IMG/VR virus record: IMGVR_UViG_3300033148_010428
Coordinates: 1 to 26,870 of that record
Origin: a virus
Length of the DNA: 26,870 nucleotides
Direction: 5' to 3' (one strand)
Translations under genes and position numbers: made by a program
Notes under the pieces: model-generated
Seen by the model: the letters and a program-made list of their open reading frames with translations, nothing else
Database searches by the model: none
What the model was told of the DNA's origin: nothing
In this document: positions 1 through 26,359 of the stretch, in pieces
Numbering within the stretch: position 1 is the first letter of the stretch
Layout: the number at the start of each line of letters is the position of its first letter

Positions 1-153
1 TTGAATCAAGACCCCGCGGCTATTCTCGCAACTTTTAAGTTTTAGTTTTCCTTCCATCAATAAGCTCCTTATTATCGACCGTAAGGCGGTTGAGATTTTT
101 TCATTCATTTCACAATATCCGTTATCGGGAATAGCCGCGGGGTCTTGATTCAA
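1..153. repeat. 25-bp perfect inverted repeat at the window edge
   Basis: Bases 1-25 are the exact reverse complement of bases 129-153, with a 103-base spacer. The repeat reaches base 1, so it may continue outside. It lies inside the radical SAM frame, which stays open through both arms. A contig that begins exactly in such a repeat suggests either a fold-back or assembly artefact or a genuine recombination or inversion site. The sequence alone does not decide. Confidence 0.9.
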
Positions 154-1140
154 AGCCATGTTTGTAGCGAAACATCTGTTGCAGGAGAACACCTTGCAAT
201 TAAGGCACTTAACAGCTTTCTGCCGCATCCCGCTTATTTTCTTAAACGCCTCGCTTGTCTCATCAATGCCTTTCCATACATCTCCCAGGCAAAAATCGTA
301 TTTCTTCGAATAGGCAACAAACCTGTGGCAGGGATATATCCTGCCTTCAGTTGAAACCCCGATCAAAAACTCACCGGCCCGACAGCCTCTCTGCCGATTA
401 AATGAATTATTGACGATACGCTCCAGAGAGTTGTGAAGATAGTTGAAATATTGCTTATGTCCATTGCGATAATACAGCTCAATACATTTCTTTAACTCAC
501 TCACAAAATCACTGATCACTTCATCATTCCAATCGCCTTCTACAATAGGCGTAAGGTTCGTAACTGGAACCCCAAAGGAAAGCATTGCTTCAAAATCTTT
601 TGATAACGACTTTATGTTATCAGGCGTAACGGTCATGCGCACACCGACACTTTGAAAAACCTCTCGTATTTTCTTTATGTTTCCGGCAATAACTTTATAG
701 CTCCCCTTATCATTGGCAAATACCCTGTTGGCATTATGGGTTTCCTCACAGCCGTCAAGAGATATCTGAAAATGCCAGTTGAAATTATTGTACGGCCGTA
801 TACTTTTAAAATAATCTATCATTTCATCAGTCAACACTGTTCCGTTTGAAAGGATATGAACACCTGCTTTAAAGTTCAGTTTGTCACAGATAGTGTGCAG
901 ATAATCTATGCCCGCTTTAACTGTGGGGAAGTTGAGAAGAGGCTCTCCGCCGAAGAACGTAAACGTTAAATTTTCAAACGGGCGGGTAAACATTTCCTTT
1001 TCGTAATGTCTTACAAGCCAATCAATAGTCTGGCGCATAGTTTCCGGTGACATATCACCGGTACGGTTTTCCTCATAGCAGTATTTACACTTAAGGTTGC
1101 ATTTATTAGTTACAAAAATATAAGCTGATTTCGGTTTCAT
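1..1140 (-). CDS. Radical SAM/SPASM-domain maturase, 3' end cut by window edge
   Basis: The frame stays open from ATG at 1140 to base 1 (380 codons, no stop seen). It carries the radical SAM signature CNLKCKYC (Cys14, Cys18, Cys21), the SAM-binding GGEP (residues 64-67), and a C-terminal SPASM-type cysteine set (Cys253, 271, 284, 312, 315, 320, 323, 343) expected to hold auxiliary iron-sulfur clusters. Known SPASM enzymes modify ribosomally made peptides, for example by thioether or C-C bonds, or act as sulfatase maturases. A GGAG site lies inside the end of the upstream gene and only one base separates that gene's TAA from this ATG, so translation is probably coupled. The natural substrate is inferred to be the Cys/Thr-rich protein encoded at 1142-1717. 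The last eight codons lie in an inverted repeat (bases 1-25), so the true C-terminus is uncertain. The family call is secure; the substrate is inference. Confidence 0.93.
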   Translation of the reverse strand, partial: MKPKSAYIFVTNKCNLKCKYCYEENRTGDMSPETMRQTIDWLVRHYEKEMFTRPFENLTFTFFGGEPLLNFPTVKAGIDYLHTICDKLNFKAGVHILSNGTVLTDEMIDYFKSIRPYNNFNWHFQISLDGCEETHNANRVFANDKGSYKVIAGNIKKIREVFQSVGVRMTVTPDNIKSLSKDFEAMLSFGVPVTNLTPIVEGDWNDEVISDFVSELKKCIELYYRNGHKQYFNYLHNSLERIVNNSFNRQRGCRAGEFLIGVSTEGRIYPCHRFVAYSKKYDFCLGDVWKGIDETSEAFKKISGMRQKAVKCLNCKVFSCNRCFATNMALNQDPAAIPDNGYCEMNEKISTALRSIIRSLLMEGKLKLKSCENSRGVLIQ

Positions 1141-1141
1141 T

Positions 1142-1717
1142 TTAATCTCCACAATCACATTCACTGCAACACTGCTCCTGGCAAGTACACGTACAGGTAC
1201 AAGTGCATGTGCAGGTGCAAGTACAGGTGCATTCACACTCACAGCAGACTATATGCGTATGAGCCGCCAGGCTTTCCAAATGGCTTCTTAATTCTTCATG
1301 CGCCGATGCCTTAACCCATGTAACCAGCGCGGTAACAGGATCATCTTCGAAACTAAATCCCGGATTATAAATATCCGAATTTACGCCATATGCCGGTACA
1401 TAATGATTATGGCCATCAAAATCCTTAATAAAACCTATGATTTCATTCGTATGCGACGCCTTCGGCGGAGTTTCATCTACAACAAGCTGAGCATTCGATT
1501 CAGCCCAGGCGACCGCTACATCAGGCAACTCAGCGTTTGAATTATTTCCATTAAATACATGATAATGGCCGTCCAAAGCTTCCAAAGCCGCTCTCAGCTC
1601 CACAATATGCGTCTTTTTAACAGGCGTCACATCCTGAACCAGGGGATTATCTGTCCACGCTACGGGGACAGGATTCCCTCCTGAATCTTTCGGGGGCCCG
1701 CTTGTATAATTTCCCAT
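1142..1717 (-). CDS. Tail-locus protein with three HxH repeats and a (Thr-Cys)8 C-terminal tail; putative rSAM substrate
   Basis: The product has 191 residues and matches no family I recognise. Residues 21-157 hold three related units of about 50 residues, each with a His, a helix-like ELRxxLExL segment and an HxH pair: His37/51/53 (HYH), His89/103/105 (HNH) and His140/153/155 (HTH). All 16 cysteines lie in the last 34 residues: CC-E-C-E-C, then eight Thr-Cys pairs (residues 164-179), then QEQCC and ECDC. The Thr and Cys codons in the repeat vary synonymously, so the protein pattern is selected rather than being a fresh slippage product. GAGGAAG lies before the ATG. It sits distal to the tail-tip and fibre genes, and the next gene is a radical SAM/SPASM enzyme one base away. 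I infer a virion or tail-surface protein whose Cys/Thr tail is crosslinked, or is metal-binding. It could instead be a RiPP-like product unrelated to the virion. Confidence 0.88.
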   Translation of the reverse strand: MGNYTSGPPKDSGGNPVPVAWTDNPLVQDVTPVKKTHIVELRAALEALDGHYHVFNGNNSNAELPDVAVAWAESNAQLVVDETPPKASHTNEIIGFIKDFDGHNHYVPAYGVNSDIYNPGFSFEDDPVTALVTWVKASAHEELRSHLESLAAHTHIVCCECECTCTCTCTCTCTCTCTCQEQCCSECDCGD

Positions 1718-1728
1718 ATTTCTTCCTC

Positions 1729-2301
1729 TTAAGCGTACACCGCTCTTGGCGGAGTGTTTTCAAATCTTGAATTAGCGTTGTTATATCTGAGTGTTTGTCC
1801 ATCCTGAACCGTATCAAGGTGTACGGGTATAGTCTCGTAGAAACCTCTGGCACCGGCGCCGTTAGTCCCGTAATATTTAGTATTTCCCGGCGAAGTCGCG
1901 CCGCCTTCCAGTTTCCCTGAACCCACACCGCCGTCTTTTAATTCCAGCTTATCCGTTCCTGAAATCTGAAAGACACCGGTCTCAATTAACCCGTCCAGGT
2001 ATTCCGGTGTAGTATCGCTTACATCAGCTTTTAATTTGTTTGGCGAATTCTCTGCAGGTAAAACTCCTGCCGCTGACGGCACGTTCATAAGGCCCGTGAG
2101 AGCCGAACCATTGACCTTATTAGCCGTGGCAATCTGAGCGAGTTTTGTGTCTTCAATGCCAGCACCGGGGGATACCTTCGCGTTTGTAATCTGCAAATTA
2201 GGATCCGTACCAAGTTCTATAGCGTCCCAGTTTGCCCGGCAGGCGGGCGGAAAGTTTATCAAAAGCATATCATTTTCCGGTGTCGTCTTGTCCCAGGCCA
2301 T
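1729..2301 (-). CDS. Putative tail fibre/appendage protein
   Basis: This 190-residue protein opens with MAWDKTTPENDMLLINFPP and continues with low-complexity, Asn/Thr/Gly-rich sequence. Blocks such as GTDPNLQITNAKV and IEDTKLAQI resemble the repeating shaft of trimeric phage fibres. It has no cysteine-rich or enzymatic motif; one Cys lies near residue 21. A strong AAGGAGGTG precedes ATG 2301. It overlaps the upstream 92-residue gene by 32 bases and ends 11 bases before the HxH/Cys-rich gene, so the two are probably translated together. A fibre or adaptor role is inferred from composition and from position after the J-like gene; no receptor-binding domain is recognisable. Confidence 0.6.
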   Translation of the reverse strand: MAWDKTTPENDMLLINFPPACRANWDAIELGTDPNLQITNAKVSPGAGIEDTKLAQIATANKVNGSALTGLMNVPSAAGVLPAENSPNKLKADVSDTTPEYLDGLIETGVFQISGTDKLELKDGGVGSGKLEGGATSPGNTKYYGTNGAGARGFYETIPVHLDTVQDGQTLRYNNANSRFENTPPRAVYA

Positions 2302-2767: not shown

Positions 2768-5575
2768 CTATATCCCGTGACTATGCCAGTCAAAGGTTCC
2801 TGTTTGCGCCACTCCCTGGGCGTTGTATAACTTGACCGTAAATCCCGTTGTTGACTTACCGGCAAATTGCGAATAAATGCCGGAGCCGCTTGTTATCTCA
2901 ATATGAACGCTCGGTTCTTCATGAAATATTTCCGTAAAAAAGATTTCTTTACCGTCATTCGCAACCGTAACTGTATCAGTACCGTGTTCGTCTATATCCG
3001 GAAGATCACCGAAATAACTCAATGTCGAACAGGTAATATAGTCACCTAAATTCTCCCTGGATAAAGTCATCTCGATTTGAAAATATCTGCAGTAATAATC
3101 ACCCGGCTGGTAAACTTCCCAGTCACTCCAGACAATGTTATCTTCAGACATCCTTATCCTGAAACCGGCCGCTCTGAGCGTTTCCTGTCCGGTAAACCGG
3201 TATGTTGTGCTGTCGTTAAACCTGGAAACACCGTCACTGTTAAAGCGTCTCCCTGTAGATATCGAAGCAATAACGTCAACCCCGACATAAACGGTAGCCA
3301 CATAACCAAAATCCCTTACAGGCGCTGTATAGGTCCCCGAAAACTCGCCGTCTGAAATGATCAGGGTACCGCCGACCTTTTCAAGGTTTAATAGTGTTCC
3401 AAGCCAGTCAGGATGTTCTTCAAATTCAGCGATAATATTACGAAAAGGAATAGTGCTTACCGTAACTATCGCTTCTTTCGCGTTATCTGAATAATTGCCT
3501 GAGGTATCAAGGGCTTTGATCCAATAGCTCTGTTCAACGCCCATTTTCACATCCGTGGTCAAAAACGAGGTTCCCTGCTGAAAGGTAATAAACTCTCCGC
3601 TGTCCCAATCCTCACCACGTCTGATTTCGTAACCCCATACATCAACATCACTTATCGCTGTCCAGCCAAAATAGATCATGTCTCTGTTTTGATTAACCAA
3701 AAAGGAAGTAACATCCGTTGGCGGCGCGGCTTTACCGACAACAGTGATTTCCTGTTCAGGTGAAGTATTGAACGCGCCTTCTTCGTCCATATCCGTGACC
3801 GCCACAACTTTGACCTTATATGTGTAGTTGGAAATAATATCCCCGAGTATCTGAAAATGCGTGCCGGTGGTTTCGCCTCGAAGGCCCCAGCTGGCTCCGT
3901 CATTATCACTTAGATATATTCTGGCCTTGGCGTAGGTTTTTACGAAATATGATGCCGCGTCCGGTTTATCGAACCAAACATCAATAGTATTCTCAATTGT
4001 ACCGTCAGCTTTTTTAACGATGGCTTCAGTCAGGTTTAGATTTTCAACATTTGGGATTTCAGTTGAAAGCGAAGAGTAGTTGCTTTCGGGCAGTATAATA
4101 TCCGAATCGTCATACACATTCTCGTTATACTCTAATGCCTGTATCCGGCATTCATTGGTTCCCTGCCTTTGAATAGAAACCACTCTGAAATCTTTCTTAA
4201 TTTTGTTTGTTTCGCCGATAGCGTATACATCAAAGGCCTGAGGCGTATTCGCAAAAGCCTCACACTCAATCTCTGTATAACTTCCCATAGGAGAAGTAAT
4301 ATTTTTCTCCTCAATCGTATCGTCGGAAAACCTGACCTGAATCTTGTAGGATTTGCCGTCTTCAATAACCATTGTACGGTCAAGTTTAATCAACGTCGCG
4401 GTCGATCCTGACTGCACACGCCCCGAAAAACCCCACTGCGGCACATCATGAGAAATTGAAATAATGTCTCCTGCCTGACAGGCGATAGCGTCAATCCCGG
4501 CCCTGAAAGCGATTGTACGGTTAATATACTTTGCGACCTTAAGCGCGTATCTCCCGGCCCGAATAGCATAGCTTAGGCGAGTAGTGAAAAGACGAATTTG
4601 ACTCTTGCGCATTGGATCCCCGGCGGCCAAAGCATCCTCGTCAATATAAGAAACCGTCTCCTGGCGGTATCCTTTATCTTTATCCATAAACTGAATTTCA
4701 ATAACATTAGGGATTTCTTTCATCGTCTTCCAGCTCTGGGCGAAACTACCTTCAATGATATTGCCCATACCGAAAAGTTGCGTTGGATTGGTAGCTTTAT
4801 CTATCTTAAACGACACTCCGCCAGCCGAATACACCGGCATAGCGTTGAATGTAGCGCATAACTGTATCAGCACATCCAGTGCCTTTGAGTTTGAATCGAT
4901 AACAACATCCATCCGAAATCGCTTCTCAAAACCGCCTTTGCCGTCAGCTACTTTTTTTTCACAGTAGCGTGACATTTCGAGTAAAGACGCGTTGTCCAGG
5001 TTGTCTGATGATATAAATTCACCCAGGCCGTAGCGGTTGTTAATTATAAAATCTCTTAAACACCACACAGGATTTGCCGAGTATTTTCCGGTAAAAGTCG
5101 ATCCGTCCCACGAAAGAAGTGTATCGTCCGAAAGCAATCTGTAATCGGTGCCGTCCCAATAATAATCTTCCCAGTCAACCGGCGTTCCGGCATTACGGAT
5201 ATCCGGAACCGATACCTGTTTACCCTTAACAACGCATGTTATATTAGGCATTGATCCTGATAACTGATCCGTTGCCAGAAGTTTAATACCTAAAAGGGCA
5301 GTGTTGGGATACCTGAGGTCATCTGTTTTAATCTCATCAATCTGAAACCACATAAGATCGCCTTGTTTTAAGGGATCAAGTGAAGAATCCTCAGACGTTC
5401 GTGTTATCCGAATATCGTATTGTCCAGGAGTTAAGCCCTCTTTGCGAAAGATCCTGCGAACAGTCGATCTCGATTTTCCGGAAATTGTGGTTTCACCTAA
5501 ATCGATATAAACTGGATCTGTATGCAGTTTATATTCAACACGATAGGTGACAATGCGGGTTGTCCTTTGTAAGGT
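2768..5575 (-). CDS. J-like tail tip/host-specificity protein, C-terminal portion (split by frameshift)
   Basis: This open frame of 935 codons has its first ATG at 5353, but the homologous protein clearly starts further upstream. The segment before the ATG reads IVTYRVEYKLHTDPVYIDLG and then GQYDIRITRT, a typical continuation of the J/TipJ family. Downstream are the conserved YPNTALLGI block, a distal-tail-like core, and fibronectin type III-like beta modules (for example around PPTDVTSFLVNQNRDMIYFGW). The C-terminus ends in a small beta domain. The family forms the central tail-tip hub and contacts the host receptor. The N-terminal portion is in another frame at 5535-6287. Joined, they give about 1,175 residues, close to lambda J plus a small domain. 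The frames overlap between 5535 and 5578, and a one-base change near 5550-5565 would join them. It could be a sequence error or a disabling mutation. Confidence 0.85.
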   Translation of the reverse strand, partial: TLQRTTRIVTYRVEYKLHTDPVYIDLGETTISGKSRSTVRRIFRKEGLTPGQYDIRITRTSEDSSLDPLKQGDLMWFQIDEIKTDDLRYPNTALLGIKLLATDQLSGSMPNITCVVKGKQVSVPDIRNAGTPVDWEDYYWDGTDYRLLSDDTLLSWDGSTFTGKYSANPVWCLRDFIINNRYGLGEFISSDNLDNASLLEMSRYCEKKVADGKGGFEKRFRMDVVIDSNSKALDVLIQLCATFNAMPVYSAGGVSFKIDKATNPTQLFGMGNIIEGSFAQSWKTMKEIPNVIEIQFMDKDKGYRQETVSYIDEDALAAGDPMRKSQIRLFTTRLSYAIRAGRYALKVAKYINRTIAFRAGIDAIACQAGDIISISHDVPQWGFSGRVQSGSTATLIKLDRTMVIEDGKSYKIQVRFSDDTIEEKNITSPMGSYTEIECEAFANTPQAFDVYAIGETNKIKKDFRVVSIQRQGTNECRIQALEYNENVYDDSDIILPESNYSSLSTEIPNVENLNLTEAIVKKADGTIENTIDVWFDKPDAASYFVKTYAKARIYLSDNDGASWGLRGETTGTHFQILGDIISNYTYKVKVVAVTDMDEEGAFNTSPEQEITVVGKAAPPTDVTSFLVNQNRDMIYFGWTAISDVDVWGYEIRRGEDWDSGEFITFQQGTSFLTTDVKMGVEQSYWIKALDTSGNYSDNAKEAIVTVSTIPFRNIIAEFEEHPDWLGTLLNLEKVGGTLIISDGEFSGTYTAPVRDFGYVATVYVGVDVIASISTGRRFNSDGVSRFNDSTTYRFTGQETLRAAGFRIRMSEDNIVWSDWEVYQPGDYYCRYFQIEMTLSRENLGDYITCSTLSYFGDLPDIDEHGTDTVTVANDGKEIFFTEIFHEEPSVHIEITSGSGIYSQFAGKSTTGFTVKLYNAQGVAQTGTFDWHSHGI

Positions 5576-6287
5576 TTACATTGACAGGATAAAGGTTGTG
5601 CAGATCCTCAAAATTCGGGATCAATGACTGATTGTTGGCGCCATGCCTTTCAGTTACGCTTATCCCGCTGAAATTGCCGATAGGATTGCTGTTTATCTTG
5701 ATATCGTCTATGGACTCGATTATACCTTCACATAAAGACAAAAGAACATTGAGGTAATTCTTATCACCATCGTCCCATATGTACTGGTTAATAATATTTC
5801 CGCCGATCTTATGTTCGCCGTATACAACCGCAACCGGTACACCTACTTCCTGAATCGTCTGAACACCATCCCAGCCGTATGTGGGCGAGCCTTCATCAAG
5901 TCCGCCTGTCGGCCCGGCCCCTAAATTAAAGTCAGGCATTCTCGGCTGGTTCATGTATTGATATATTGAATACCCCATGGACAGCACAAAGAAAGTGAAC
6001 AGAAAAGGGTGAGCAACGGCTACAGCCCACACGGCTGAAACAATCGCTGAAATCACAGCAACAACAGGAGCCTTAACCTCAGGGATAATCGTAATCTCAT
6101 CATCTTGTTCAATACGCGCGTCAAGGTCTTTGACTCTCTTGCCGGTAACAATAACCCGCTTGTCTTTATAATCAAATCCCGAAACATCAAGATGGCCTCG
6201 CAGAGTCTTGTCTCTTGAATATGAAACTTCCAAGGTTTTAGCTTCGTTTAATTTGAAAGGATTATTTATGTTTCGTACAGTTACCAT
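5535..6287 (-). CDS. gpI/J-like tail tip protein, N-terminal portion (split by frameshift)
   Basis: The start chosen is ATG 6287. It overlaps the end of the NlpC/P60 gene by seven bases and has AAGGAA upstream; an earlier ATG at 6332 lacks support. Residues about 1-75 look like the small beta-grasp domain found in lambda gpI. A hydrophobic stretch follows (VAVISAIVSAVWAVAVAHP and on), then the TipJ N-terminal region with PTYGWDGVQTIQEVGVPVAV and the YGEHKIGG motif. The protein then runs out of frame, ending in CHLSC, where homologues would continue directly into the sequence encoded at 2768-5575. The gpI and J functions therefore appear fused in one gene in this phage, then interrupted by a single-base frameshift. 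Confidence 0.85.
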   Translation of the reverse strand: MVTVRNINNPFKLNEAKTLEVSYSRDKTLRGHLDVSGFDYKDKRVIVTGKRVKDLDARIEQDDEITIIPEVKAPVVAVISAIVSAVWAVAVAHPFLFTFFVLSMGYSIYQYMNQPRMPDFNLGAGPTGGLDEGSPTYGWDGVQTIQEVGVPVAVVYGEHKIGGNIINQYIWDDGDKNYLNVLLSLCEGIIESIDDIKINSNPIGNFSGISVTERHGANNQSLIPNFEDLHNLYPVNVNLTKDNPHCHLSC

Positions 6288-6781
6288 CTTATTTTCCTTA
6301 AGCGATAAAAGCCTTCCGTTCTTTTGCTCCAAGCCTCATCGTCAAGCCTTGAAACCACCACGCCTTGTCTGGGGCAGTGGATAAACTTCCTGTTTTTTAA
6401 AACAATGCCCGCATGGTTAGCCACGCCTCTTGAGTTTAAAAACAATACACCGTCCAGAGTTTGCGGAACGTCAACTTTTTTCCAGTCGTTCTCATAATTC
6501 TCTCTGAAATAATCCCTGCCTCTTAATCCCCAGATCTTCTCATATTCCAAATCTTCGACATCAAATAACTTAAATCCCATGTCCGCGTATACCAATTTAA
6601 GGAACCCCCAACAGTCCAGGCCTGCCAATGTCCTGCCCCTGTGCAGATAGGGAATACCCAGATACTTATCCGTAATCAGCTTCTCTACATGATGTATATC
6701 CGTCTTGTCGGCACCGAAGGAAAAGCCCCGAACCTCTGATAATTGTTCAGTTGTTTGCATCTTTGCTGTGTCTTGTCGCAT
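6281..6781 (-). CDS. NlpC/P60 tail assembly peptidase (gpK-like)
   Basis: The protein is an NlpC/P60-fold cysteine peptidase of the lambda K type, expected to work at the tail tip in cell-wall passage or tip assembly. The catalytic Cys lies in GLDCWGF and the catalytic His in NHAGIVL; a later FIHC block fits the family. The reading frame is open upstream to an ATG at 6808. I chose ATG 6781 because AGCGGA lies six bases before it; ATG 6760 is another option. All three starts overlap the L-like gene considerably (76-124 bases), and no start codon exists just after that gene's stop, so the true start is uncertain. The lambda N-terminal JAB-like domain is absent or unrecognised. Confidence 0.85.
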   Translation of the reverse strand: MRQDTAKMQTTEQLSEVRGFSFGADKTDIHHVEKLITDKYLGIPYLHRGRTLAGLDCWGFLKLVYADMGFKLFDVEDLEYEKIWGLRGRDYFRENYENDWKKVDVPQTLDGVLFLNSRGVANHAGIVLKNRKFIHCPRQGVVVSRLDDEAWSKRTEGFYRLRKIRW

Positions 6782-19298: not shown

Positions 19299-19881
19299 GT
19301 CTTACTCCCGCAAATTCATCTATAATTTCACTGATCGCTTCGTACAGATCAACTTCGATTTCTCTCGGCTCTTTCATAGCCAGAACCGGTGCCAGCCTTG
19401 TCGGCAGGGCAAGAAAGGCTCTCTTAACCGCAATAATTCTGGCAATCCTTCCTTTTTCTACTTCCTCCCGAGGCATAAGCTCACCGGTTACTCTTTTAAG
19501 TTCCAGCTCAAGTAAAGATGCTTTATATTTCCTGAGCTTGGTCTCCCAATAAATCTTGCCTTCGGTTTCTTCATCAATAGTGCCGCTTCTTCCGTCATAC
19601 CATCTTTTAATTTCTTCCAGGTCATAATAACCGTCTTTTGTAACCGGCATGCCTTCGCGCTTCCAGCGATAAACTGTTCTCCAGTTGACCTCCATGATTT
19701 TTGCGACTTCTTCGATTGTCTTCACTGTGGTATCACCAAGAGGTTCAGTCTCAAAATCCTCAAGCTCTTTTATTTCCTGCTTAGACAGAGCGGTGCCGCT
19801 GTGCAGTTTTTCGATTAAATGCAAATATCGTTTCTTGCGGGCAATCTCCGCTAAATTCTGATTCTTATTTTGTTCCGCCAC
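19216..19881 (-). CDS. terS: Terminase small subunit (Nu1-like)
   Basis: This 221-residue protein has a helix-turn-helix/MerR-like DNA-binding segment around residues 53-95 (TIEEVAKIMEVNWRTVYRWK, then DLEEIKRWYDGR). A helical oligomerisation part and a C-terminal segment with AFLALPTRLAPVLA follow, as in lambda Nu1 relatives. It recognises the packaging site and hands DNA to the large subunit. The last 80 bases overlap the large-subunit start; the start overlaps the methyltransferase gene by 17 bases. Confidence 0.85.
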   Translation of the reverse strand: MAEQNKNQNLAEIARKKRYLHLIEKLHSGTALSKQEIKELEDFETEPLGDTTVKTIEEVAKIMEVNWRTVYRWKREGMPVTKDGYYDLEEIKRWYDGRSGTIDEETEGKIYWETKLRKYKASLLELELKRVTGELMPREEVEKGRIARIIAVKRAFLALPTRLAPVLAMKEPREIEVDLYEAISEIIDEFAGVRHDNKKTRQKNMDTGRKKGMETSGKDNG

Positions 19882-21181
19882 TTACGCCCTCCAATACAGC
19901 CTTATTACCTGTAAACTCTTCCCATCGTTTAACCGTAACATCACAAAATACAGGCTCAATCTCCATAGCGAAGACTCTACGGTTAAGACGCTCTCCGGCA
20001 ATAATCTGCGAACCTGAACCGCAAAACGGTTCATAGCAAATCTCACCAGGCGCGGTATGCACTCGCATGGGAATGGCAAATACCTCAGTAGGCTTAACTG
20101 TTGGGTGATTGATCCCGGTGTTTCTTTTTTTACCTTCCCAGTCCAGCTCCCAAAGATCCGTGTAGTATTCCGGTTTTGACGGATCTCCTGACCTTATCAA
20201 ATCAACAGTCCAGACACTGCCGATTGATTTATTCTTAGGTTTATACGGCGGTTTGTTGCCGCGCACCCACATCAAAAGACACGGCTCATGCCGCCATGAA
20301 TAAAATGAATAGGTAAGAATAGAGCAGGGTTTCACCCAGATAATCTGCTGGTGAATAAGCAAGTTTAACTCATCACAAACTTCCTCAATCATTGCTTTGC
20401 GTTTTGAAGCGTGCCATAAATAGAGAGCCGAGTTGTCCTTTATGTGTTTTAGTCCCGCTTTATAGAACAATTTTATAAATTCTTTCGCGTCCGGGATATC
20501 GATCTCATGATACACATCAGACCAGTCTTTTCCGCCGGTAGGCCTGTCTGCTCCGGTATAGTCAACACAATACGGCGGATCCGTGGCAAACAGACTTGCC
20601 TTATTGCCTGCCATAAGCCTTGCGACATCTTCATCTTTAGTAGAATCGCCACAAAAAAGACGGTGTTCTCCCAGTATCCACAGATCACCTTTTTTTGTAA
20701 CCGGATCTTCCGGCGGTTCGGGAATATCATCCGGCAGTGTTTTTCCCGCGCCGGTATTTTCCGTTTCAAACTCCGCGACTTCTTCCCGCAGTTCTTTCAT
20801 GCGAAGCGCAACATAATCATCAGACGATTCAGTGCGCAGTTTTTCCAGGAGGGGAATAATAGCCTCTGTCCATGACCCCACGATCTGCTGAGAATTGAGA
20901 GTAAGGTTCATAGCCATTTCAGAAACCTCATCCAGATCAACCATGATCGCGGTAACATTTTCAACGCCTTCTGCCTGTAAAATCTTATACCTCTGATGGC
21001 CGGAAATAATCCTCATATTGCGTTTATTGACTACCAGAAGATCCACCAGCCCGAACTTCTCAAGCGACTGCCTGAGGCCCGCAAGAGCCGCATCCGAAAT
21101 CTCTCTTGGATTGTACGGTGCCGGTTTGATTACTGACATTTTGACATCGCAAATGTCAGGTTTTACATTAATTTTTGCCAT
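19865..21181 (-). CDS. ParB-domain/DNA methyltransferase fusion
   Basis: The first 100 residues are a ParB/Srx-type nuclease-like domain (IKPAPYNPREISDAALAGLR, RIISGHQRYKILQ). The rest is an amino-methyltransferase with catalytic ATDPPYCVDY, a central region around WHASKRKAMIEEVCDE, and the SAM-binding FCGSGSQIIAGERL near the C-terminus. DPPY before FxGxG marks the beta-class (N6-adenine or N4-cytosine). This fusion is frequent next to phage terminases. It probably methylates phage DNA to escape host restriction or to mark packaging DNA; specificity cannot be read. A strong AAAAGGAGGCG lies before ATG 21181. No cognate restriction enzyme is in the window. Confidence 0.92.
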   Translation of the reverse strand: MAKINVKPDICDVKMSVIKPAPYNPREISDAALAGLRQSLEKFGLVDLLVVNKRNMRIISGHQRYKILQAEGVENVTAIMVDLDEVSEMAMNLTLNSQQIVGSWTEAIIPLLEKLRTESSDDYVALRMKELREEVAEFETENTGAGKTLPDDIPEPPEDPVTKKGDLWILGEHRLFCGDSTKDEDVARLMAGNKASLFATDPPYCVDYTGADRPTGGKDWSDVYHEIDIPDAKEFIKLFYKAGLKHIKDNSALYLWHASKRKAMIEEVCDELNLLIHQQIIWVKPCSILTYSFYSWRHEPCLLMWVRGNKPPYKPKNKSIGSVWTVDLIRSGDPSKPEYYTDLWELDWEGKKRNTGINHPTVKPTEVFAIPMRVHTAPGEICYEPFCGSGSQIIAGERLNRRVFAMEIEPVFCDVTVKRWEEFTGNKAVLEGVSGGTK

Positions 21182-24478: not shown

Positions 24479-24607
24479 GATCCCCGATCAGAACAACCCT
24501 AACGTCTTGTAATAGCTTGACTTGTAATGCCTTCTATTATAGGGTTGGGGCGCAACGAAAATCTGGAAGAAATCTCAGGGGCAACACAAAATAAGAGGCA
24601 GGTTAAA

Positions 24608-26359
24608 ATGGCACAAATAATCAGATCAAAAGAGAAAAAACGATTCGTAATTTACACCCGATGCTCTACCGATGATCAGGCTCAGGGTGATTTTACAACA
24701 CTGGACGCGCAGGCGCATCACTGCAAAAACATGCTGGATGCCTTCGGCTATGAACTTGCGGATATTGGGAAAAAAGGAATTATTAATGATGACGGGTTTT
24801 CAGGAAAAGATCTGAACAGGCCGGGAATACAGAAGATTCTTGAGGATATAAACAAAAAGCGGTCATTTGACGGAGTAATATTTTTCCGTCTCGACCGCTT
24901 AACAAGAAATCCAAGGGATCTCTACTCGCTCATTGATTTATTCAGAGATAAAGATGTTGATTTTATTTCAGTAAGGGAAAACCTCGACAGCTCAACTGCC
25001 ATAGGACGTGTAGTGATTGGAATTTTAGGACTGTTGTCTGCCTTTGAACGTGAACTGACAGGTGAACGAGTAAAAGCTTCAGCTATTGCCCGTGTGCGAC
25101 AGGGCAAATGGGTAGGCGGGTTCCTGTGCTACGGGTACAAACTGATAAAAGACGGTGATCCCTTGCCTAACGGAAGACAGCCACATAAGGTTGTACTGGA
25201 CGAAAAAATTGCGCCGAAACTGCGGATCATCTGGGAAATGGCCGCTGATAATAAGTCTCTTATGGAAATCGGCCAGGAGTTAATACGCCGGGGCGTAAAA
25301 ACCCGCTACGGTAAAGAATGGCGTAAACAAACCTTATCAACGATTATTAAAAACCCCTTCTATAAAGGATATCTTCTTTATGCTAAAGAACTTCATAAAG
25401 GAAATCACGAGGCCCTGATTGAACCCGCTGTCTGGGAAAAAGCAAACAGGATGCTTGTCGCCAGACTGCCCGGACACGGGTTCAGCCGGAAACCAAAATC
25501 ATATGATTATCTATTAAGTGGATTATTACGATGTGGTAAATGCGGTAGCCACCTGATATCGATATCTAATAAGGGGCGATCGGGAAGGAAGTTTTGTTAT
25601 TACATCTGCGGCAGGTCCAAACAAAAACTCGGATGCGATGAGCTGAGTATCCCGGCAAAAGTATTCGATAAAGCTTTAATAGACTATTTTCGCAAGGCAT
25701 CAGAAAACAGGGATATCATCGTAAAAGGAATAGGCGATGCCATACGTGAAGCTCAGCTGATGGCCGGGCGTATTGATACCTTAATCAACGAAACGGAATC
25801 AAAACTAAACGACTGCCACCATGAAGCCAAGACACTTCTTGATCTGGCAATGAGCGGAACTGTAACGCAGGGCGCTACATATAAAACTAAAATGCATGAA
25901 TTGGATAATAAGATCGTTGCTCTGGAAGACAAACTAACCAAGCTCCGAACACAAAAGACAGCCAGTGACATGACTGCCAATTCAGGAAACTACCTGCACG
26001 AAACACTCCAGTTTGCCATGCAATACCTCGATAAAGCCCCGGCAGATGCCCAGAAAAGCCTCATACATGCCCTTGTTAAAGAGATTGTAATCCATAAAGA
26101 AGTTATAGATCTTAAAATGTACCTGGGCGATCCGGAAGAAACCCTGCAGGCCGATATATCCGACTGCAAACATGCCGTAAAAAAGAAAAGCCCCGCTTCG
26201 GTATTAAACCGAAACGGGGCAGTAACCAACCAGACGCTTGGTGCGTCTGTTCGTCAACAATGGCTCCCCGGGCTGGACTCGAACCAGCGACACCGTGGTT
26301 ACAACCTTCTTACGTTTCCGTTCCGCCAGAGGCGGATCCACCTTAGGTGGAAAGGGTAG
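24608..26359 (+). CDS. Large serine recombinase (phage integrase)
   Basis: ATG 24608 is chosen because GAGGCAGG lies just upstream; an earlier ATG at 24527 has no Shine-Dalgarno. The catalytic domain begins RFVIYTRCSTDDQA with nucleophile Ser20, followed by RLDRLTRNPRDLYSL and the E-helix region GLLSAFERELTGERVK. Next is the recombinase domain (NPFYKGYLLYAKEL), a zinc ribbon with Cys309/312/334/343, and a coiled coil (RIDTLINETESKLND to LEDKLTKLRTQKT) of the large serine integrases. The enzyme joins attP and attB in one step and needs a directionality factor for excision. The final 55 codons run through two hairpins and a tRNA 3' end (WLPGLDSNQRHRGYN), so the true C-terminus may be affected by integration. 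Confidence 0.93.
   Translation: MAQIIRSKEKKRFVIYTRCSTDDQAQGDFTTLDAQAHHCKNMLDAFGYELADIGKKGIINDDGFSGKDLNRPGIQKILEDINKKRSFDGVIFFRLDRLTRNPRDLYSLIDLFRDKDVDFISVRENLDSSTAIGRVVIGILGLLSAFERELTGERVKASAIARVRQGKWVGGFLCYGYKLIKDGDPLPNGRQPHKVVLDEKIAPKLRIIWEMAADNKSLMEIGQELIRRGVKTRYGKEWRKQTLSTIIKNPFYKGYLLYAKELHKGNHEALIEPAVWEKANRMLVARLPGHGFSRKPKSYDYLLSGLLRCGKCGSHLISISNKGRSGRKFCYYICGRSKQKLGCDELSIPAKVFDKALIDYFRKASENRDIIVKGIGDAIREAQLMAGRIDTLINETESKLNDCHHEAKTLLDLAMSGTVTQGATYKTKMHELDNKIVALEDKLTKLRTQKTASDMTANSGNYLHETLQFAMQYLDKAPADAQKSLIHALVKEIVIHKEVIDLKMYLGDPEETLQADISDCKHAVKKKSPASVLNRNGAVTNQTLGASVRQQWLPGLDSNQRHRGYNLLTFPFRQRRIHLRWKG
26179..26220 (-). terminator. Intrinsic terminator of the tRNA unit
   Basis: Bases 26190-26202 pair with 26208-26220 (13 positions, one mismatch, AT loop). 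On the minus strand the stem is followed by a U-rich run. It is about 40 bases downstream of the tRNA 3' end and lies, oddly, inside the recombinase reading frame on the other strand. A second, 7-bp hairpin is at 26231-26249. Confidence 0.85.
26261..26301 (-). tRNA. 3' exon of an intron-split tRNA, probably tRNA-Asn(GUU)
   Basis: The minus-strand sequence starts TAACCACGGTGTC, then the T-arm GCTGG-TTCGAGT-CCAGC, acceptor CCGGGGA, discriminator G and CCA. Its 41 bases equal tRNA positions 36-76 with a five-base variable loop. The T-arm pairs perfectly. G73, a CCGGGGA acceptor side and T36-A37-A38 fit tRNA-Asn, split between positions 35 and 36. If the exon began a few bases earlier, the anticodon could read UGU (Thr). 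The 5' exon is beyond the window, so identity is provisional. Confidence 0.8.

Follow-up and report, generated by a model that had tools for sequence, protein, structure and literature searches.

A cysteine-tailed protein gene and a radical SAM/SPASM enzyme gene in a viral tail locus, with similar pairs in other phages

Gene content of the locus and its relatives

The window, which comprises the whole analysed stretch of 26,870 nucleotides, carries a cassette of minus-strand genes at its first end. One of these genes (P0002; positions 1142 to 1717, minus strand) encodes, according to its open reading frame and translation, a protein of 191 amino acids that is presumed to be the substrate of the enzyme encoded next to it. 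Its C-terminal end, CCECECTCTCTCTCTCTCTCTCQEQCCSECDCGD, forms a cysteine-repeat tail (residues 158-191, CCECEC(TC)8QEQCCSECDCGD; positions 1145 to 1246, minus strand) with 16 cysteines in 34 residues, none being found in the first 157. The preliminary description of this DNA, which had reported 16 cysteines within the last 34 residues, including eight Thr-Cys pairs, is thereby confirmed by the translation. The remaining genes of the window have a cysteine content of 0.9%, and the probability of at least 16 cysteines in 34 residues is 3e-24. Three N-terminal repeats, WTDNPLVQDVTPVKKTHIVELRAALEALDGHYH (positions 1559 to 1657), WAESNAQLVVDETPPKASHTNEIIGFIKDFDGHNHY (positions 1400 to 1507) and FEDDPVTALVTWVKASAHEELRSHLESLAAHTHIV (positions 1247 to 1351), all on the minus strand, were read by eye and are putative; an AlphaFold model of P0002 was unusable (pLDDT 31). 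Comparison of P0002 against Pfam, NCBIfam and PHROGs returned no family matches, and no structural-family homologue was detected.

Relatives of P0002 were found in nine IMG/VR contigs (86-96% identity) and in a prophage of Candidatus Velamenicoccus archaeovorus LiM (Omnitrophota), in whose complete chromosome a genome scan located the cassette. The run in these relatives is (TC)8 or (TC)6, the latter occurring in L003, L004 and L010. Between the cysteine tails of the window and the LiM prophage there are 18 synonymous differences (17.3 sites) and no nonsynonymous ones (84.7 sites); synonymous sites are saturated and the amino acids unchanged. The tail codons are furthermore mixed, with TGT and TGC for cysteine and ACC, ACA, ACT and ACG for threonine. 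This codon diversity and the lack of nonsynonymous changes relative to LiM rule out a DNA microsatellite or artefact as the origin of the TC run.

The stop codon of P0002 ends at position 1142 and the ATG of the radical SAM/SPASM enzyme gene (P0001; positions 1 to 1140, minus strand) starts at 1140, leaving the gap of one base that had been claimed for the two genes. They adjoin in every relative contig that reaches both. P0001 is cut by the contig end, with genuine sequence extending to approximately base 25-29. Positions 1 to 28 (no strand assigned) are a 28-nt inverted copy of positions 126-153, and the last eight P0001 residues (NSRGVLIQ) are therefore a fold-back artefact of the contig end. 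The full-length relatives, found among eight IMG/VR contigs, comprise 428-430 amino acids, with approximately 56 more C-terminal residues.

Directly upstream in the operon lies a gene for a 190-amino acid protein (positions 1729 to 2301, minus strand), which is 80% identical in LiM, and further upstream a gene for a J-like tail tip protein (positions 2768 to 6332, minus strand; phrog_31, lambda TipJ). The latter is interrupted by a frame break at approximately 5353-5535, which splits it into ORFs of 265 and 861 amino acids; the LiM prophage has a single 1236-amino acid ORF. In the longer relatives the order runs from the J-like tail tip gene through genes for proteins of 75, 92 and 190 amino acids to the cysteine-tailed protein and the SPASM enzyme. 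Located 3′ of these, and beyond the end of the window, are genes for a 450-amino acid B12-type radical SAM enzyme (best model TIGR04479, 93 bits against a cut-off of 600), a 96-amino acid protein and an Lcl_C/DUF1566 protein. The B12-type enzyme (L011:7291-8643), which is kept after the SPASM enzyme, is nearest to the PhpK family, below its cut-off, and a second modification by it is possible. The last third of the Lcl_C/DUF1566 protein (L096:10942-11505 and homologues) is variable, like the target of a diversity-generating retroelement. Such an element was rejected, as no reverse transcriptase occurs in eight related contigs and the single one of LiM lies elsewhere.

The window is collinear with the LiM prophage across the ParB/methyltransferase gene, terminase, portal, capsid, tail and cassette. 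An enzyme of the window type is present in one of 384 Omnitrophota genomes, which rules out a wide presence in this group. The window also encodes a ParB-like/DNA methyltransferase fusion (positions 19865-21181) and a large serine recombinase (positions 24527-26359), which would fit a temperate Omnitrophota phage.

Relationship of the enzyme to known maturases

The CxxxCxxC motif of P0001 (C14, C18 and C21; positions 1078 to 1101, minus strand), its GGEP motif (residues 64-67) and the SPASM cysteines C253, C271, C312, C315, C320, C323 and C343 (auxiliary-cluster region C253 to C343; positions 112 to 384, minus strand) are all intact, in agreement with what had been read previously from the sequence. 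The radical SAM cysteines, C253 and C271 do not vary across 49 phage enzymes, and the other SPASM cysteines are nearly invariant. The CxxxCxxC motif, two sets of auxiliary-cluster cysteines and a radical SAM fold place P0001 among the radical SAM/SPASM enzymes, although it scores below the curated cut-off of every NCBIfam maturase model.

The closest of these models is that of the PapB family ranthipeptide maturases (NF047865), which is likewise closest for several other phage enzymes. P0001 reaches 208.4 bits against its cut-off of 340 and falls outside the family as defined. PapB links Cys to Asp or Glu (PMC9413430). PapB-type spacings are present in P0002 where the TC run borders its flanks (C158xxxE162, C184xxxD188 and C187xxxD191), whereas the eight TC pairs themselves contain none, and the target is a phage protein of 191 amino acids. 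The closest fold is that of CteB, the maturase of the SCIFF system (TIGR03974; PDB 5wgg, 5why), a SPASM enzyme with a cysteine-rich target that shares 26% identity with the phage enzyme. It ranked first when a profile of the 49 phage enzymes was compared against solved structures (6.5e-74), and was the best fold match of a predicted model of the closest full-length relative (pLDDT 80; 1.1e-19). The paper describing the CteB structure refers, in its title, to thioether bond formation. In contrast to P0002, the SCIFF target is a short peptide, and P0001 lies outside TIGR03974 (135 bits against a cut-off of 425). Furthermore, the alignment begins at CteB residue 98; the phage enzyme lacks the N-terminal domain of approximately 97 residues located ahead of the SAM domain in CteB, which leaves its substrate recognition to be accounted for. 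CteB links Cys to Thr.

By analogy with CteB, thioether chemistry would be the most likely activity of the phage enzyme. Threonine is the obvious partner in the TC run and fits the Cys-Thr link of CteB; the predicted Cys-to-Thr/α-carbon cross-links in the P0002 tail are plausible. Alternatively, the tail could be modified by a different chemistry, such as conversion of Cys to formylglycine, the formation of carbon-carbon cyclophanes or epimerisation; if a tail tip carried aldehydes, for instance, these could bond host amines. Anaerobic sulfatase maturases are indeed the second closest fold, and cyclophane maturases are found further down among the NCBIfam models. However, formylglycine formation uses one Cys set within CxPxR or CxAxR, a sequence context that P0002 lacks, while both sulfatase (66 bits) and cyclophane maturase scores lie far below that of PapB (208). 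We consider a different chemistry quite unlikely.

The pairing of an enzyme with a cysteine-rich target is a type already recognised in cellular RiPP genomics (PapB, CXXX and SCIFF), and some phage members fall within the NCBIfam CXXX models. The enzyme of phage contig L031 passes the cut-off of TIGR04115, the model for the CXXX-repeat enzymes, and four and three phage cysteine-repeat proteins match the target models TIGR04114 and TIGR04117, respectively. P0001, by contrast, scores 145 bits against the TIGR04115 cut-off of 350, and P0002 matches no NCBIfam model and has a cysteine spacing of two rather than four. In one cellular CXXX operon that was read (L398), an enzyme of approximately 730 amino acids is accompanied by a 57-amino acid peptide and a transporter. 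The possibility that such cellular operons are prophage-borne was discarded, none of four being phage-like over approximately 4 kb read around each.

Pairing of enzymes and cysteine-repeat proteins across phages

Distant phage SPASM enzymes were gathered by searches with enzyme alignments, and most of them lie beside genes for cysteine-repeat proteins of 64 to approximately 1000 amino acids. A same-strand cysteine-repeat gene occurs within six genes of 67 of the 96 phage enzymes. Where long flanks are available on both sides, 49 of 69 enzymes have such a neighbour and 20 lack one, many of the latter being on long separate branches. Cysteine-rich genes are over-represented up to three genes from the enzyme (near versus far, p = 3e-6), although the far group contains true partners at a distance of four to seven genes. 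The repeats show three main cysteine spacings, namely every second (CTCNCNYCTC, CDCDC, TCTC), third (CQTCDSCQ) or fourth residue (CSGSCTGTC), and the spacing follows the enzyme tree, with 10 changes as opposed to the 27 expected from shuffles. Among 29 enzymes less than 40% identical, eight changes were counted compared to 13.1 expected, a value as low being obtained in 2 of 1000 shuffles.

The reverse comparison started from all 38 viral contigs whose DNA matches CTCNCNYCTC. A SPASM enzyme is encoded in the same record in 37 of these, 36 at an E-value of 1e-80 or better and one as a weak partial match (7.8e-11), the lone exception being a 24-kb fragment, and the radical SAM genes usually occur two or three together. 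None of 49 control contigs, which were unrelated viral contigs from a (TGYNNN)8 scan, contains such an enzyme; the contrast is strong, if not perfectly matched, as another repeat pattern had served to select the controls, whose average length is below that of the test contigs. The (TGYNNN)8 scan was itself discarded as a reverse test, since it returned mostly out-of-frame repeats.

The co-occurrence of substrate and enzyme anticipated in the preliminary description is thus borne out in both directions (67/96; 37/38 versus 0/49), as well as by the agreement of spacing with the enzyme tree. Homologues of the enzyme were not consistently found beside an unrelated substrate, and the searchable motif was enzyme-free only in the 24-kb fragment, apart from the one weak match. 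The pairing is well supported as general among phages.

Several cultured phages carry the pairing. In Erwinia phages Huxley and pEa_SNUABM_29 and Salmonella phage SPAsTU, two tandem cysteine-repeat ORFs (L348:7179-7970, L349:7103-7905 and L352:7184-7987 in these Erwinia/Salmonella jumbo phages) follow a virion structural gene and directly precede two radical SAM genes. They are unannotated in the Huxley and SPAsTU records, that of Huxley showing opposite-strand hypothetical genes there. Campylobacter phage CPt10 encodes radical SAM enzymes (gp023, gp141 and gp166), a protein with CDCNYCTC repeats (gp145) and two with CxxC repeats (gp032 and gp169). The latter two (gp169, L355:10920-11345; gp032, L347:19838-20047) have a common N-terminal domain, LIDGYYxDSxNNKWDSS, followed by the CxxC repeats, and gp169 lies near gp166. 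The enzymes of CP220 and CPt10 are of the same kind as those found here (37% identity to that of L294). In the literature, however, the 11-12 radical SAM genes of Campylobacter phages and an intragenic 21-bp repeat were noted separately and not linked, and Timms et al. (2010) suggested that the radical SAM genes boost host metabolism (PMC2853527).

That proposal favours an explanation in which the cysteine tail serves to bind metal or iron-sulfur clusters, while the target of the radical SAM enzyme is something else, for instance tRNA, DNA or host metabolism, and alternating cysteines are able to bind metal. For unrelated genes, however, neither a two-way co-occurrence nor a spacing that follows the enzyme tree would be expected, and the enzymes are members of the SPASM group of peptide maturases, leaving this explanation highly improbable.

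Virion association and proposed role

Genes near the phage pairs include those for tail and virion structural proteins, and in some phages the cysteine repeat is fused to such proteins, namely a tail fibre (L032; phrog_2631, 2.7e-32), two tail proteins (L033) and a Hoc-like capsid decoration protein (L036; phrog_10993, 2.9e-92), with a second Hoc-like case in L316. In the part of the Faecalibacterium phage Mushu record that was read, the Hoc-like protein has no cysteine-rich stretch and no radical SAM gene lies nearby. Many of the repeat partners match just two PHROGs of unknown function, phrog_26958 (20/64) and phrog_6085 (15). The fusions uphold, for the relatives, the earlier remark that the substrate is unusual in being long and of structural type. 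With regard to the claim that the phage modifies its own tail or surface protein, the pairing stands in both co-occurrence tests, and the sole pointer to a virion role for P0002 itself is its position after the J-like gene. Judging from gene content and fusions, a virion role of the cysteine-repeat proteins as a whole is moderately supported. As many unrelated phages have the same pairing, phages probably radical-modify proteins of their own particles.

Alternatively, the cysteine-tailed protein may function outside the virion, as a RiPP-like toxin, exclusion factor or signal encoded by the prophage or during infection and made in the host cell. P0002 lacks a structural homologue, and lambda-like phages often have cargo genes behind J, both of which fit this view. 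However, the cassette differs from the cellular CXXX operons that were checked in having no gene for a transporter, a protease or immunity, and other phages have the repeat joined to tail or capsid domains. P0002, at 191 amino acids and with no protease or transporter gene in the cassette or the LiM prophage, also departs from the RiPP pattern of a short precursor with a leader and accompanying cleavage and export genes. A role outside the virion therefore appears rather unlikely.

We consider it somewhat probable that P0002 is the substrate of the adjacent SPASM enzyme, that it is a component of the tail tip or surface and that its C-terminal tail is thioether cross-linked. During infection, the enzyme would cleave SAM at its CxxxCxxC cluster and abstract hydrogen from residues beside or between the cysteines, whose thiols would be joined to carbon in a series of thioether cross-links along the tail. 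These would connect Cys to Thr in the TC repeat and, possibly, to Asp or Glu where Cx3D and Cx3E motifs flank it. The B12-type enzyme, whose gene comes next in every longer relative, may introduce an additional change, e.g. C-methylation. The product would be a rigid tip resistant to proteases and reduction. We infer the thioether chemistry, the residues cross-linked and the benefit to the phage. Points against this reading are the enzyme's scores under all maturase cut-offs, its missing N-terminal domain, the 20 of 69 phage enzymes that have no repeat gene nearby and the failure to find a structural homologue of P0002.

Short secreted peptides are known to undergo radical cross-linking. What appears undescribed is the occurrence of such pairs in phages and virions, with long structural targets, without genes for export or cleavage and over a broad range of phages; in the PMC open-access set, no paper was found that connects phage radical SAM enzymes with cysteine-rich virion proteins. 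The chances seem evenly balanced that the pairs mark a widespread, unrecognised class of tailed phages which build virion appendages from cysteine-repeat proteins and cross-link these covalently with radical SAM enzymes of their own, the lineage of the enzyme being matched to the cysteine spacing. If so, phages would have a novel means of hardening or functionalising their particles, the puzzling radical SAM genes of Campylobacter, Erwinia and Salmonella phages would gain a role, and the large number of such genes in cultured phages such as Campylobacter CP220 would be explained. The cultured carriers make direct testing feasible, and many uncharacterised pairs of maturase and cysteine-repeat protein are on offer for peptide engineering.

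The cassettes vary in composition, with one, two or three enzymes; in L294:4901-8302 three consecutive radical SAM genes lie ahead of the gene for a cysteine-repeat protein. The enzymes of the CxxC class (L330:5806-7134, as well as L327 and L336) start with a cysteine-rich stretch, MSDCRSCYTCEKG, and perhaps act on themselves.
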